Both the position numbers and the translations under genes were made by a program. A stretch of DNA of 35,834 nucleotides from an uncultured Thiotrichales bacterium (GTDB lineage: Bacteria; Pseudomonadota; Gammaproteobacteria; CAIRSR01), in the NCBI GenBank assembly GCA_903824965.1, contig CAIJYR010000124.1:1-35834 (forward strand), given 5' to 3'. The notes below the pieces were generated by a model, which saw only the letters and a program-made list of their open reading frames with translations, did no database searches and was not told where the DNA came from. Every line of letters starts with the position of its first letter. Position 1 is the stretch's first letter. Below, in pieces: positions 3,572 through 18,089 of the stretch.

Positions 3572-3678
3572 ACCGTCAGAGTGGGTCGTTTGTGCAAGAG
3601 GAATTGCCATCGGTCACGGCCAGGAGGTTGTAGCAGAAATGCGAGAGCCTGGAGACCCCTACGGGTTCATCCTTGAAA

Positions 3679-3701
3679 CCCCAGGGCGTAGAGCCATGGG
3701 G
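3679..3701. repeat. IS605-like right-end hairpin
   Basis: CCCCA/TGGGG outer stem with an inner GGC/GCC pair around GTAGA. It lies about 110 bases after the tnpB relic, where an IS200/IS605 right end is expected. It probably marks the right boundary of the dead element. Confidence 0.55.
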
Positions 3702-3740
3702 TGGTTTAGCACTTGGCATTGAGGAAGTTGACGTCAGGGT

Positions 3741-3825
3741 TGTCACGAGGAGTGTGACATAGACGAGAGGTGTCACCATGGGGGGTGCGACATTTCCGAG
3801 CGATGTCACAGAGGGGGGTGTGACA
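3741..3825 (+). promoter_or_regulatory. Alternating TGTCAC/GTGACA box array upstream of pilA
   Basis: Six six-base boxes start at 3741, 3754, 3771, 3787, 3804 and 3820. They alternate strictly in orientation: TGTCAC, GTGACA, TGTCAC, GCGACA (one mismatch), TGTCAC, GTGACA. Successive spacings are 13, 17, 16, 17 and 16 bases. The array lies about 85-170 bases upstream of the -24/-12 promoter, a normal enhancer distance for a sigma-54 activator. Published Pseudomonas aeruginosa work describes PilR sites as repeats containing a C/G-TGTC core, which fits these boxes. A PilR-type protein is encoded at 9852-11345. Binding by PilR is inference. Confidence 0.6.
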
Positions 3826-3909
3826 TTTTCGCGGTGATCACGAAGGAAAGGCGGTACAAGGGTGCCATAAAGATGCACAGGGCGTGATGCGTGCACCATC
3901 TGTCATGAG

Positions 3910-3925
3910 TGGCATGATAACTGCA
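3910..3925 (+). promoter_or_regulatory. Sigma-54 (-24/-12) promoter of pilA
   Basis: TGGCATGATAACTGCA has GG and GC separated by exactly 10 bases, close to the consensus TGGCAC-N5-TTGCA. The predicted transcript start is near 3936, about 60 bases before the first pilA start codon. RpoN/PilR control of pilin is the known arrangement in several gammaproteobacteria. Confidence 0.72.
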
Positions 3926-3942
3926 GGCCACAGTCGGTGACT

Positions 3943-3960
3943 GTGGATCATGCGATCCAC
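3943..3960 (+). promoter_or_regulatory. Hairpin in the pilA mRNA leader
   Basis: GTGGATC and GATCCAC pair perfectly around an ATGC loop. A second perfect palindrome, CCACAGTC/GACTGTGG (3928-3946), shares the GTGG segment, so the two stems exclude each other. If transcription starts near 3936, only the downstream stem forms in RNA. It may protect the 5' end of the pilin mRNA. No function is proven. Confidence 0.4.
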
Positions 3961-3995: not shown

Positions 3996-4466
3996 ATGAA
4001 AAAGAATCAATCTGGTTTCACGCTCATTGAATTGATGATCGTCATCGCGATTATCGGCATTCTGGCAGCGGTTGCCCTGCCTGCTTACCAGAACTACATG
4101 ATCAAAGCGAGAGTATCAGAGGGCATCACCGATTTGGATGCCATGAAGACCATAGCTACCGAGTATGTATCGTCCAATGGTGGATTCGCAGCAACCATCC
4201 CAGGCGTAGCACTACCGACCAACCATACGTCCAATGTGGCCGGATTGACCTACACCTATACCAGCGCCACGGCTGCATCGATCATTGTCACCCTTGGAAC
4301 CCTTGGAAACGCTGCCATTGATGGCAAGTTTATCGGCGTCATTGGCGCTGTAAACGCCGATGGGACAGTCAGCTGGACGTGCGGAACCACCGCCGCAGCT
4401 AACAGCGTTGCTGTCGCTGCAACCACCACCATGTACCCCTACCTGCCAACCGCCTGTCAACATTAA
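3996..4466 (+). CDS. pilA: Type IV pilin major subunit, copy 1
   Basis: Precursor of the structural subunit of type IVa pili (adhesion, twitching motility, DNA uptake). The 156-residue product has a short leader MKKNQSG and the prepilin-peptidase site G/FTLIE, followed by the hydrophobic spine [20 protein letters not shown]. Glu at mature position 5 is kept. Two cysteines near the C-terminus (SWTCGT and TACQH) can form the usual disulfide-bonded D-region. The start is supported by GGAG eight bases upstream and by homology. It lies downstream of a sigma-54 promoter and an array of candidate activator sites. It is followed after 83 bases by a near-identical second copy with no promoter that I could recognise, so the two are probably co-transcribed. 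Confidence 0.96.
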
Positions 4467-4549: not shown

Positions 4550-5020
4550 ATGAGAAAGAATCAATCTGGTTTTACGCTCATTGAACTGATGATCGTCATC
4601 GCGATTATCGGCATTCTGGCAGCAGTTGCCCTGCCTGCCTACCAGAACTACATGATCAAAGCGAGAGTATCAGAAGGCATCACTGACTTGGATGCCATGA
4701 AAACCATCGCTACCGAGTACGTATCGTCCAATGGTGGATTCGCAGCAGCCATCCCAGGCGTAGCACTGCCGACTAACCATACTTCCAATGTGGCCGGATT
4801 GACCTACACCTATACCAGTGCCACGGCTGCATCGATCATTGTCACCCTTGGAACCCTTGGAAACGCTGCCATTGATGGCAAGTTTATCGGCGTCATTGGC
4901 GCTGTGAACGCCGATGGGACAGTCAGCTGGACGTGCGGAACCACCGCCGCAGCTAACAGCGTTGCTGTCGCTGCAACCACCACCATGTACCCCTACCTGC
5001 CAACCGCCTGTCAAAATTGA
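4550..5020 (+). CDS. pilA: Type IV pilin major subunit, copy 2
   Basis: Encodes 156 residues that differ from copy 1 at only three positions: Lys2 to Arg, one Thr to Ala in the AAxIPG segment, and the last residue His to Asn. Cleavage site, N-terminal spine and both C-terminal cysteines are the same. The duplicated DNA starts at the shared leader TTACGGAGAAAGTA (about 3980 and 4534) and runs to the stop; the upstream promoter region is not included. Most differences between the copies are silent, which points to a recent duplication or ongoing gene conversion. I see no sigma-54 site in the 83-base gap, so expression probably depends on the promoter of copy 1. Confidence 0.95.
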
Positions 5021-9259: not shown

Positions 9260-9760
9260 TTACGACAACGCCAGCAAATCGTCCGGCCGATAGAAAAACG
9301 CCAAGACACCACTGCCAGGCTGAGGAATCCCGGGAAAAGACAATCCTAACAAGGCACCCTTACGGAAGCGGACAGTAGGCCCAGCGTTCGGCCCCAAGAG
9401 TTGCCCAGCCAATACACCCAAATCAGGTTCGTGACCAACCAACATCACCATTTCCTTCGGATCACAGATCGCCAACATTTCCAGCACGGCATGCAGGGAG
9501 TATTCTGCGCCCAGCACAACGTTTTGTACTAACCTCTCTTCCAGGCCGAGTACCGCAGCAGTGATCTCTGCCGTCTGACGCGCACGCAATCGAGGACTGG
9601 TAATGATCCGATCAGGCCGTATGCCCATTGCATGGAACACTTTGGAGACCCTGCGGTGACGCTTGACACCCGCCTCCGTGAGAGGACGTAGATCGTCATC
9701 GGGATAGACCGCTGGATCCGGTCTTTCTGCACGGGCATGACGCAATAACAACAGGTTCAT
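9260..9760 (-). CDS. sixA: SixA-type phosphohistidine phosphatase
   Basis: A small histidine-phosphatase-superfamily protein (166 residues) with the N-terminal LLLLRHARAE motif, where His8 is the phospho-accepting residue. Further conserved parts are SPRLRARQTAE and MLVGHEPDLG, which hold the catalytic arginines and the second histidine. E. coli SixA removes phosphate from histidines in phosphotransfer domains or in the PTS protein NPr. Whether this one acts on the HPt domain encoded at 22238-25003 is open. The start at 9760 is chosen because GGAGG lies five bases upstream; a longer version would begin at 9772. Divergent from pilR. Confidence 0.88.
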   Translation of the reverse strand: MNLLLLRHARAERPDPAVYPDDDLRPLTEAGVKRHRRVSKVFHAMGIRPDRIITSPRLRARQTAEITAAVLGLEERLVQNVVLGAEYSLHAVLEMLAICDPKEMVMLVGHEPDLGVLAGQLLGPNAGPTVRFRKGALLGLSFPGIPQPGSGVLAFFYRPDDLLALS

Positions 9761-9851
9761 GGTAGCCTCCAAGCCAATGGGCCAACGGGGGCCAACCCCG
9801 TGGGACGGGTGGGTATCAGCACAGACATCGAAACAACAGGGTCATCGTACC

Positions 9852-11345
9852 ATGGCGGACAGGCACCTAGCACTGATTGTTGACGACGAACCAGACATTC
9901 TAGAACTGCTGGAGATTACGATGGAACGTATGGGTATAGAAACCTGTGCGGCTTCCAACCTAGAGGAAGCTCGGTTGGCTTTGGCGCGTCGTTCGGTGGA
10001 TCTGTGCATTACCGATCTCCGCCTACCCGATGGCGATGGCACCGAACTCGTAGAACACATCCAGCGCCTTTATCCAACCATTCCGGTGGCCGTCATCACG
10101 GCACATGGAAACATGGAAACCGCCATACGCGCCCTTAAGGGAGGGGCTTTTGACTTCGTTTCAAAACCGCTTGACCTTCAGATTTTGCGCAACCTCGTCA
10201 CCACGGCATTGCAGATTTCCCGACACCCGATTTCGGATCAACCGCGTACCCGTTATCGGCTGCTCGGTCATTCGACGGCCATCCACACGGTACGCGCTAT
10301 GATCACCAAGGTGGCTCGTAGCCAAGCTCCCGTACACATCAGCGGAGAATCTGGTACCGGCAAAGAGTTGGTGGCACGACGCATCCACGAACAGGGGCCA
10401 CGCGCCGAACATCCCTTTATACCGGTCAATTGCGGTGCCATCCCCTCTGAACTGATGGAGAGCGAATTGTTTGGCCATCGTCGTGGTGCTTTCAGCGGTG
10501 CTGTGCACGAACACGATGGGTTGTTCCAGGCTGCCTCAGGGGGAACGTTGTTCTTGGATGAGATTGCCGATCTCCCGCTCTCCATGCAAGTGAAGCTGCT
10601 ACGAGCCATACAAGAGAAGGCCATACGTCCAGTAGGTGCCTCTCGTGAAGTACCTGTAGATGTGCGTCTTCTGTCCGCAACCCACAAAGATCTCGCTTCT
10701 TTGGTACAGATGGGCAGCTTCCGAAAAGATCTCTATTATCGTGTGAACGTCATTGAACTACACGTTCCCCCCTTACGCGATCGACGCGAAGACATCCCTC
10801 TGCTGCTGGAGTATTGTTTGGGTCGATGTGCGGCTTTGTCTGGCGTGCTGGTGCCGCAGGTCTCGGAGGCCGCACGCAATGCCCTGTTGTGTTATGCCTT
10901 CCCAGGTAATGTGCGAGAACTCGAAAACATTCTAGAACGTGCCATGACCTTGTGCGAACGGGGCATCATCCAAGAGGGAGACCTGTGTTTACCAGCCATC
11001 GGCCTTCCAGCCATCGCTCTTCCATCCATGGATTTGCCAAGCGCATGCTTCCCAGAATGGTCAGAATGGTCAGAATGCTCGGACAAATCCCCTGCGACTG
11101 TGCCCAGTACATCTTCCTCCGGCACGCTCCTCATAGAGGAGGTTCCTCCCACAGAAAGCGTACTCGACCCGTTCCTGGACGCCGTTGAGCGAGAAACCAT
11201 CCTACACGCGCTCCAAGAGACCCAGGGCAATCGTACCCATGCAGCACGGATCCTCGGCATCCGCCCCCGTGTCTTGCGCTACCGTCTCAAAAAACTCGGT
11301 TTAGAATCCCAGAGCGTTCGCACCTTCGGTGAAAAGGCGTCCTAA
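9852..11345 (+). CDS. pilR: PilR-type sigma-54-dependent response regulator
   Basis: An NtrC-family activator of 497 residues. The receiver domain (1-120) has the VDDEPDILELLEIT start, phospho-acceptor Asp55 in CITDLRLPDGDG, and the K of FVSKPLDL. The AAA+ domain (about 140-380) has Walker A GESGTGKE, the sigma-54 contact loop GAFSGA (usual form GAFTGA), and GTLFLDEIADLP. The C-terminus carries a Fis-type helix-turn-helix (NRTHAARILGIRPRVLRYRLKKLG). Similarity is strongest to PilR of Pseudomonas. A proline/serine-rich linker of about 60 residues with short sequence repeats separates AAA+ and HTH. No PilS sensor gene is adjacent; in many genomes pilS precedes pilR. The pilA promoter and candidate sites in this window are the obvious target. 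The start is set by homology; an upstream in-frame start at 9759 would add 31 unrelated residues. Confidence 0.9.
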   Translation: MADRHLALIVDDEPDILELLEITMERMGIETCAASNLEEARLALARRSVDLCITDLRLPDGDGTELVEHIQRLYPTIPVAVITAHGNMETAIRALKGGAFDFVSKPLDLQILRNLVTTALQISRHPISDQPRTRYRLLGHSTAIHTVRAMITKVARSQAPVHISGESGTGKELVARRIHEQGPRAEHPFIPVNCGAIPSELMESELFGHRRGAFSGAVHEHDGLFQAASGGTLFLDEIADLPLSMQVKLLRAIQEKAIRPVGASREVPVDVRLLSATHKDLASLVQMGSFRKDLYYRVNVIELHVPPLRDRREDIPLLLEYCLGRCAALSGVLVPQVSEAARNALLCYAFPGNVRELENILERAMTLCERGIIQEGDLCLPAIGLPAIALPSMDLPSACFPEWSEWSECSDKSPATVPSTSSSGTLLIEEVPPTESVLDPFLDAVERETILHALQETQGNRTHAARILGIRPRVLRYRLKKLGLESQSVRTFGEKAS

Positions 11346-14539: not shown

Positions 14540-16204
14540 TCACGGGCCACTGCGAACCAGACGAAACCCAACGTCGCGGTCACGGTAAGCGGGTGTACTG
14601 ATGTAGCGATTGGCTACACGAAGGTGACGCGCATCCTCACTCCAACTGCCACCACGAAAGACACGATTGGCCGTATTGTGGACGTCTGCGCACACGGCCT
14701 CGCTGCCATCCGCATAGTTTTTACTGTACGCAGAACAGGTCCACTGCCACACATTTCCCAATATGTCATACAAACCCCAAGGGTTTGGCGCAAAAGAACT
14801 CACCGGTGCAGTATAGATCCACGCATCCTTCCCTTCCGCCATGCCACCGCAACAGACATCCTTTCCGTAGTTCGCATACTCGTGACTGGCAGCATTGCCC
14901 CAATAATATGGTGTGGTCGTACCCGCCCGCGCCGCATATTCCCACTCTGCTTCGGTCGGGAGACGATACGGTTTTCCGGTCTTTAGGCTCAACCATTTTG
15001 CATAGTCCATCGCATCCAGCCAGCTTACATTGATCGCTGGACGGTTTTCTCCGCCCCAACTTTCGTCAGACGCGATGCGCCCATTGGTATCGTCGACAAA
15101 ACAATTGTATTCTGTAAAGGTGACGGCATACTTTCCGAGGGAGAAACGATCCACATGCACACGATACAGTGTCTCATCCTCAGCACGCCCCTGTTCCCCT
15201 GGAGGTGAACCCATCATAAAATCTCCACCCGGAATCGTCACCACCTCTGGTTCTACGGGGCAGGCGGCCAGGACAACGGTAGGTGCCATCCAAGACAACG
15301 CCAGCAACACTGCGCCTGTAGACAAAAACAGAGATTTCCATACGATCATCACCATTCCCCCCTGCTCCTGCGCTGCTGTACGCACAGCATGACCCACCCG
15401 CAGCATCTCAAGAGTGGCCCCAACATCGTGAACACGCAAAATACTGGCCCCTTGCCAAGCAGCGATCACAGCAAGCGCAAGACTTCCATAGAGGCGCTGC
15501 GCGGTCGGTATGTTTCCCAGCATGGATTTACGAGACAGCCCAACCAGGACAGGAAGACCCAGCCCGTGCACTAGGGTATCCAAATGATGCAAGAGAAGCT
15601 GGTTGTGTAGCAGGTTCTTTCCGAATCCGAAACCCGGATCAACGACCAAACGATCCCGGGAAATGCCTGCTTCCTCGCAAATACGCACACGCGCCGCCAA
15701 AAAATCCCTGACCTCGGCCACAACATCGTGATAATGGGGTTCACGTTGCATGGTGGAAGGCTCGCCTTGCATGTGCATGAGACAGACACGCGCCGAACCT
15801 GACGCAGCAATACCCAAGGCACCAGGAACACGCAAGGCACGCACATCATTGAGAAAGGTAGCTCCCGCGCCAAGTGCTGCCGCCATCACTTCTGGCTTGC
15901 TGGTATCTACCGAGAGGGTGATCGGAAAACGAACGCGCAACGCCTCCAGGACAGGCACCACGCGCGTGATCTCTTGTTCTGCAGAAACGGGCGTCGCACC
16001 AGGGCGTGTAGACTCGCCACCCACATCAATCATGTGGGCACCCTCTGCAACCATGCAAGCTGCGCGGTCTATCGCCGCCGCAAGCGTTTCTGTGCGTCCA
16101 CCGTCAAAGAAAGAGTCCGGGGTGACGTTCAAAATGCCCATCACCTGCGGGGTGGGATGCGGTGGTTCAATGCAACTGGGCTGGGCCCCCAATCCGTCCG
16201 CCAT
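14540..16204 (-). CDS. folP: Dihydropteroate synthase fused to a SUMF1-type domain
   Basis: A single open frame encodes 554 residues. Residues 1 to about 284 form a complete FolP, the folate enzyme joining p-aminobenzoate to pterin diphosphate. Motifs are [46 protein letters not shown] and [10 protein letters not shown]. There is no stop at its normal end. The frame runs into [20 protein letters not shown] and a signal-peptide-like stretch ending VVLAACP. A formylglycine-generating-enzyme (SUMF1) type domain follows: [44 protein letters not shown] and [16 protein letters not shown]. The catalytic cysteine pair of true FGE is absent in the GGSW region. ATG at 15355 has AGGAG upstream, so the second domain (14540-15355) might also be made alone and exported. 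The start at 16204 overlaps the ftsH end by 38 bases. The rlmE-ftsH-folP order matches E. coli; glmM, which follows there, is missing. Confidence 0.85.
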
Positions 16205-18089
16205 CGGAATGATCCTCTTCGTTAGCGTCCAGACTCGGTGGATTGATCGGGGCGGATTGATCACGCGGGGTATCGTCCCATCCCTCGGGGGGGCGTGGCG
16301 CTTTGCCGGACATGATATCGTCGATCTGTGTAGCATCGATGGTTTCGTACTTGATCAGTGCTTCCGCCATCAAATGGAGCTTGTCCATGTTTTCTGTAAG
16401 CAACTTTTCAGCACGCTGGAAATTGCGATCGACGATGCTCCGAATCTCTTTGTCAATGATGTGTGCTGTTTCATCCGATACCATTTTGTGTTGCGTGACC
16501 GAGTGCCCCAAGAAAACCTCGCCCTCATCCTCCATGTAAGTCAGAGGCCCTAGTTTGTCGGAGAACCCCCAACGAGTCACCATGCTGCGAGCAATATCGG
16601 TCGCACGCTGGATGTCATTACTGGCACCCGTGGTGACACATTCTGGGCCGAAGATGATTTTCTCCGCCAACCGACCCCCGAACAAACTCGCAATCTGGCT
16701 TTCTAATCGCTGCTTGCTAAAGCTATACCGATCTTCTTCGGGCAGAAACATCGTGACACCGAGAGCGCGACCACGCGGAATGATGCTCACCTTGTAGACT
16801 GGGTCATGTACCGGCACCAAGCGCCCAATGATGGCATGTCCCGATTCATGGTAAGCCGTGAGTTTTTTCTCTTCCTCGCTCATGACCATTGAACGGCGTT
16901 CGGCACCCATCATGATCTTGTCTTTCGCCTTCTCGAAGTCTTCCATTTCGACCAGGCGTTTGTTGGATCGTGCGGCGAACAGAGCCGCCTCGTTGACGAG
17001 GTTTGCAAGATCAGCCCCCGAAAAACCAGGGCTACCTCGTGCAATGATGCCCGGCAGGACGTCCTCCGAGAGCGGCACGCGCTTCATGTGGACACGCAAA
17101 ATTTGTTCGCGACCGCGCACATCTGGCAGTGGCACGACCACCTGGCGATCAAAACGACCCGGGCGTAACAGCGCAGGATCCAACACGTCTGGACGGTTCG
17201 TCGCAGCAATGACAATGACACCCTCGCTGCCCTCAAACCCATCCATCTCTACCAGGAGTTGGTTCAAGGTTTGCTCTCGCTCGTCATGACCACCGCCCAA
17301 CCCCGCCCCACGATGACGTCCCACCGCATCAATTTCATCGATGAAAATGATACACGGCGCATGTTTCTTGGCCTGCTCAAACATATCCCGCACGCGGGAA
17401 GCACCCACGCCTACGAACATCTCGACAAAATCGGAGCCAGAGATCGTGAAGAAAGGCACCTTTGCTTCCCCTGCAATGGCCTTGGCAAGCAGGGTTTTTC
17501 CTGTGCCGGGCGGCCCTACCATGAGCACACCGCGTGGGATTTTCCCACCCAATTTCTGAAACTTCCCGGGATCACGCAAAAACTCCACGAGTTCGCTGAC
17601 CTCATCCTTGGCTTCTTCGACCCCCGCAACGTCTGCAAACGTCACTTTGACCTGATCCTCGTTCAGCATCCGCGCACGACTTTTCCCAAACGAGAGAGCA
17701 CCACGTCCCCCCGCTCCCCCCTGCATCTGGCGCATGAAAAAAATCCACACACCAATGAGCAACAACATCGGGAACCAGGAAATAAACATCTGCATCAGGA
17801 TGCCCTGTTGCTCCGGAGGACGTGCATCGATGGCGACACCATTCGCGATCAAGTCGCCCATCAGTCCTGGATCCCATGGATTGTAGGTGTTGAAGCGATC
17901 TCCGCTCTGCAGGATGCCACGAATCGATCGCTCTTCTATGATCACCCGTTGGATTCGCCCCTGTTTCACATAGGCGATAAACTGCGAGTAATCTAGGTGT
18001 TGTGAAGAAGCCTGGTGGGATCCAAAATTATTGAACACCGACATCAGGACAACCGCGATCACCACCCAGAGAATGAGATTTCTTGCCAT
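16167..18089 (-). CDS. ftsH: ATP-dependent zinc metalloprotease FtsH
   Basis: Hexameric inner-membrane AAA+ protease that degrades misfolded membrane proteins and regulators such as LpxC and sigma-32. From ATG 18089 it has 640 residues. Features are an N-terminal membrane helix ([16 protein letters not shown]), a periplasmic domain, a second helix ([17 protein letters not shown]), Walker [20 protein letters not shown], and the zinc site HESGH at 414-418. His414 has the same number as in E. coli, which supports this start. A TTG at 18098 preceded by GAGGA is an alternative that adds three residues. The C-terminal tail is acidic and variable. It overlaps the folP start. Confidence 0.98.

Follow-up and report, generated by a model that had tools for sequence, protein, structure and literature searches.

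The window analysed here is a 35,834-nucleotide stretch of DNA from an uncultured Thiotrichales bacterium and corresponds to contig C124 of the genome G000, a 3.2-Mb draft assembled in 265 contigs whose relatives and gene content point to a gammaproteobacterium. It carries on the forward strand a type IV major pilin gene (3996..4466; Pfam Pilin, 7e-15, and N_methyl), preceded by the sigma-54 promoter TGGCATGATAACTGCA (3910..3925, +), which has the GG-N10-GC form common to about 100 other pilin promoters and whose GG is situated 85 bp ahead of the pilin start codon. Upstream of this promoter lies the subject of the present study, an array of six short boxes alternating in direction (3741..3825), and the gene for the response regulator PilR is found about 5 kb downstream. 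A second pilin gene (4550..5020, +), recognized by Pfam and sequence comparison, is 98% identical to the first, and neither a good sigma-54 site nor an array of its own was detected for it. Partial near-identical pilin copies are located at two contig ends of the same genome (C55:5287-5412 and C5:2869-3168), one of them following an S53-peptidase-like frame and lacking both an array and a good sigma-54 site.

Several other elements of the window deserve mention. Two perfect palindromes that overlap each other, CCACAGTC-GGT-GACTGTGG and GTGGATC-ATGC-GATCCAC, lie where transcription is predicted to start (3928-3960) and represent a possible operator or alternative leader hairpins; the leader containing them folded no better than shuffled sequences. 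A 58-bp stretch at 2769-2826, which carries CCCCGCCCTTTAGGGCAGGG and is possibly a dispersed hairpin repeat, shows 90% identity to a segment upstream of a pilin gene of a sister species, G003 (L173:309-366). On the reverse strand (14540-16336), one open frame combines a Pterin_bind domain of the dihydropteroate-synthase type with a following sulfatase-modifying-factor (FGE) domain, as assigned by Pfam, and may be either a real fusion or an assembly effect.

Boxes of the array and their environment

The array consists of six boxes, five of which read exactly TGTCAC and one TGTCGC, and their orientation flips at every step: boxes 1 (3741-3746), 3 (3771-3776) and 5 (3804-3809) are read from the plus strand, boxes 2 (3754-3759), 4 (3787-3792) and 6 (3820-3825) from the minus strand. 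The preliminary description of this DNA had listed six TGTCAC boxes, which holds for all of them except box 4, the one with a mismatch; the strict alternation it proposed, with a first gap of 13 followed by spacing of 16-17, is reproduced by the start-to-start steps of 13, 17, 16, 17, and 16 bp, and the distance of about 85-170 bases to a GG-N10-GC promoter agrees with the 86-170 bp measured to the GG of the sigma-54 site. A possible extra half-site, CGTCAG (3732..3737, +), occurs 9 bp ahead of box 1, shares its orientation and fits the consensus [TC]GTCA[CG] derived below for the class. Over the whole window TGTCAC is not over-represented (22 observed versus 25.1 expected), and five exact copies within 85 bp appeared in one of 2000 dinucleotide-preserving shuffles of the window, in a test of clustering that required neither alternation nor spacing nor position. 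Boxes 3-6 belong to a 33-bp tandem repeat (3764..3828; 2.0 copies by Tandem Repeats Finder), the two full units of which agree at 26 of 33 bases, so that one inverted pair has probably been duplicated.

With one mismatch allowed, the layout of the array occurs a single time within G000, which excludes its interpretation as a dispersed repeat in this genome, a check that the preliminary description had itself proposed. A second copy of a pair at C88:17935 falls inside a glycosyltransferase-like reading frame and is probably due to chance. The possibility that the array is part of a coding region was considered for the overlapping minus-strand frame 3576-3899, which gave no Pfam match, and was set aside. 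In the plasmid collection, matches to the query were confined to its pilin end and none involved the array; the segment between array and promoter contains no good match to the IHF consensus.

Half-site arrangement in pilin promoters of the class

For comparison, 93 pilin promoters with a good sigma-54 site were collected across the class (L066-L175 plus a few further loci); some of them share one genome, so that the set is not entirely independent. Words were counted de novo, with no motif supplied, over the 220 bp that precede the sigma-54 site. TGTCA was found 159 times against 35.5 expected and TGTCAC 63 times against 8.1; together with GTCAC and TTGTCA they are the most enriched words, and [TC]GTCA[CG] stands far ahead as the half-site. 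These half-sites cluster 60-180 bp upstream of the GG and alternate in direction. Since alternation is thus what pilin promoters of the class normally show, the contrast with simple tandem PilR sites, by which the array had been set apart in the preliminary description, does not hold. Spacing between half-sites has its peaks at 9 bp for head-to-head pairs (30 pairs), 11 bp for tail-to-tail pairs (42) and 20 bp on the same strand (23), in a histogram independent of any scoring matrix. With a matrix that was built from pairs near 9/11, the best-scoring pair is divergent at 11 bp or convergent at 9 bp in 50 of the 93 promoters, and a pair score of at least 10 is reached at 9/11 in 68 promoters and at other spacings in 7-39. 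About one quarter of the promoters lack a strong 9/11 pair, and the spacing is accordingly described as a strong tendency and no law. When 369 genomes were scanned blind for TGTCAC-N3-GTGACA-N5-TGTCAC, allowing at most one mismatch, 14 places were returned, compared to one for the reversed control, and at 11 of them a pilin gene follows shortly downstream. No description of a 9/11 spacing rule for pilin enhancers was found in the literature searched.

Against this background, it is the spacing that makes the array of the window exceptional: 16/17 bp with a period of 33 versus 9/11 bp with a period of 20 in the commonest layout. Steps of this length amount to about 1.5 helical turns, so adjacent boxes fall on opposite sides of the helix, while 9/11 steps correspond to about one turn; this property, already pointed out in the preliminary description, proved to be the truly unusual one. 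Steps of 9/11 are absent from the array, no strong partner being present at either distance, although 9/11 as a mark of membership is a tendency drawn from the present survey and not a definition taken from the literature. A search for concealed half-sites 9 or 11 bp from the strong boxes revealed weak partners only (best partner score 2.4), the pair scoring 12.1 at 3732 being an overlap with box 1 itself. Among the 369 genomes, the stretched 16/17 layout at one mismatch was encountered at three scattered places besides the array, none with a pilin-like motif in the flanks examined, and it was found ahead of no pilin gene other than that of the window. In two sister species the pilin promoter keeps the 9/11 arrangement when read by eye: TGTTAC-TTT-GTGACC-AAACA-GGTCAC in G001 and TGTCAT-TTT-CTGACC-TTTTG-CGTCAC in G002, with half-sites that are partly degenerate, mostly below the scoring threshold and hence not scored as 9/11. 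The pilin promoter of the third sister, G003, has no clear array.

PilR of the window

The pilR gene (9852..11345, +) encodes, according to Pfam, a response regulator with a sigma-54 activator domain and a Fis-type helix-turn-helix (HTH); the frame is open from 9759, and the start at 9852 was set by alignment to the first residue of the G001 protein. A search for PilR at E<=1e-110 gave one match per genome in each of 163 genomes. Within 9260-11345 of the window, pilR follows sixA and is located upstream of rimM-trmD, the order in G001 being sixA-pilR-rpsP-rimM-trmD. One clear PilS is encoded in G000, at C138:3244-4698, and each of the four family genomes has its best pilS match and its pilR on different contigs. 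Six sigma-54 activators were found in G000, and the PilR-type HTH with LRYRLKKLG is present in PilR alone, the HTHs of the other five being unrelated.

Two parts of this protein are outliers. The tether between the ATPase domain and the HTH comprises 102 residues, the maximum among 97 PilR orthologues (range 55-102, median 64; 71-81 in the sisters), and its added length includes tandem repeats of the gene within 10992..11077 (+), namely 15 bp x2.5 at 10992-11029 and 9 bp x2.8 at 11053-11077, detected by Tandem Repeats Finder and followed in translation. The HTH (11175..11297, +; HTH_8, 1.5e-14), when compared with 96 orthologues, displays an altered recognition helix, GIRPRVLRYRLKKLG, which begins with RPRV, whereas [ST][FLVY] occupies the first two places in all 96 others. 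Relative to G001, the receiver plus ATPase part is 85% identical and the HTH 70%; HTH identity among the three sisters is 85-94%. As the reading frame runs on without a break and its codons can be aligned, substitution looks likelier than a frameshift as the origin of the altered helix.

Identity of the array and origin of its spacing

Taken together, the enrichment of the half-site over the class and the predominance of pilin genes behind the places of the blind scan lead us to regard the array as, in all likelihood, an upstream PilR enhancer of the sigma-54 pilin promoter. It shares with such enhancers the sigma-54 site before a pilin gene, [TC]GTCA[CG] half-sites about 60-180 bp upstream, their alternation and a genome encoding both PilR and PilS. 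PilR would be the most likely binder because of what is established for PilR and sigma-54 pilin promoters (PMC6058289) and because the genome has a single PilR, a single PilS and a sole PilR-type HTH. Hence the earlier suggestion that the array could seat an oligomeric activator, which would most likely be PilR acting with sigma-54, gains strong comparative support from half-site, position and pilin-promoter scan, as far as sequence can tell. In the literature, PilR sites are characterized by NifA-like 5'-TGTN11AGA-3' and GTCT elements (PMC6058289). With the Pseudomonas aeruginosa-type enhancer of sigma-54 pilA the array has in common the pilin gene, the sigma-54 site, upstream boxes with TGTC core and the PilS-PilR pair; it differs by 16/17 steps, where the commonest layout of the present survey is 9/11, by the long tether and changed recognition helix of its PilR, and by the position of pilS apart from pilR.

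According to the model proposed here, PilS would phosphorylate PilR, and phosphorylated PilR would bind the array, whose six half-sites make up three inverted pairs and may thus accommodate three dimers, equivalent to one AAA+ hexamer. The bound hexamer would loop over about 90-170 bp, open the RNA polymerase-sigma-54 complex at 3910-3925 and drive the pilin genes. At norVW of Escherichia coli, a sigma-54 promoter is likewise preceded by three dimer sites, which are proposed to seat one hexamer of NorR (PMC2941729, PMC6296734); NorR belongs to another activator family (GAF domain, nitric oxide) and has other target genes. For NmpR of Myxococcus xanthus, which is NtrC-like, repeated inverted sites with a preferred distance between them are also described (PMC11841059); there, two GCGCA-N5-TGCGC sites 14-15 bp apart control pilR, while the array precedes pilin.

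How the spacing arose is a separate matter. The half-site is the one customary in Gammaproteobacteria, but the layout is widened from 9/11 (period 20) to 16/17 (period 33). We tentatively propose a joint change of operator and activator in this lineage, in which an operator unit of 33 bp would have been duplicated while PilR acquired a longer tether, partly through tandem repeats, and a different recognition helix. The most considerable competing explanation accepts the array as a PilR enhancer and opposes only the idea that these changes are connected: half-sites may serve as independent monomer or flexible-dimer sites, 16/17 may be drift that was tolerated once a tandem duplication had occurred by chance, and the changes in PilR may be unrelated. 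We hold this explanation to be somewhat less likely than not, and about as likely as a connected change. The 33-bp unit does resemble a simple tandem duplication, the promoters devoid of a strong 9/11 pair fit as well, and CbrB of Pseudomonas putida provides a precedent, its TGTTAC/GTAACA half-sites, close to the TGTCAC/GTGACA of the array, being recognized in both directions at subsites 12-16 nucleotides apart (PMC6296734). Pseudomonas CbrB binds these non-palindromic subsites at variable spacing and apparently as a monomer (PMC6296734); it is mainly monomeric in solution, uses sets of three subsites and governs another regulon, whereas the array has six regularly alternating boxes. Against unrelated drift stand, on the other hand, the strong constraint on spacing elsewhere in the class, the preservation of 9/11 in two sister species and the coincidence of three oddities (spacing, tether and helix) in one genome.

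That coincidence raises the alternative that operator geometry, tether and helix coevolved, which we put forward as tentative: the long tether, together with the replaced helix, would let the HTHs reach half-sites on alternating DNA faces, 1.5 turns per step, and no longer on one face, and the changes would compensate one another. Over 48 genomes, a longer tether is weakly associated with fewer 9/11 steps (rho -0.35, p 0.025 among those with at least two half-sites); without the family of the window the trend is not significant (rho -0.24, p 0.14), and the coevolutionary reading therefore rests on one lineage. It is also weakened by the retention of TGTCAC, since a new helix might be expected to alter the half-site.

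The same helix, unlike that of all 96 other orthologues, means that the half-site preferred by PilR could have changed, and with a spacing that departs from the usual PilR layout it might suggest the operator of some other sigma-54 activator, repressor or accessory protein recognizing TGTCAC by coincidence; we hold this to be improbable, as pilin promoters of the class are enriched in this very half-site, which here lies at a fitting distance, the remaining five sigma-54 activators found in G000 have unrelated HTHs, and the genome holds no further strong copy of the array. Least credible of all is a 33-bp slip product without role, with pilin expressed from other sites: the tandem structure and the 26 identical positions would be compatible with it, but despite differences at 7 of 33 positions boxes 2, 4, and 6 keep 17 of 18 half-site letters and boxes 1, 3, and 5 all 18, and both the place before a sigma-54 pilin promoter and the identity of the motif argue against it.

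For the class as a whole, the survey indicates that pilin enhancers of Gammaproteobacteria favor alternating half-sites at 9/11 bp with a 20-bp period. To this arrangement the PilR-type enhancer of the window would be a natural exception accompanied by an altered activator, which makes it a testable question how enhancer geometry is limited by the tether that joins ATPase ring and DNA-binding domain; should the coevolution be true, the locus would represent a bacterial enhancer that was re-spaced in nature.
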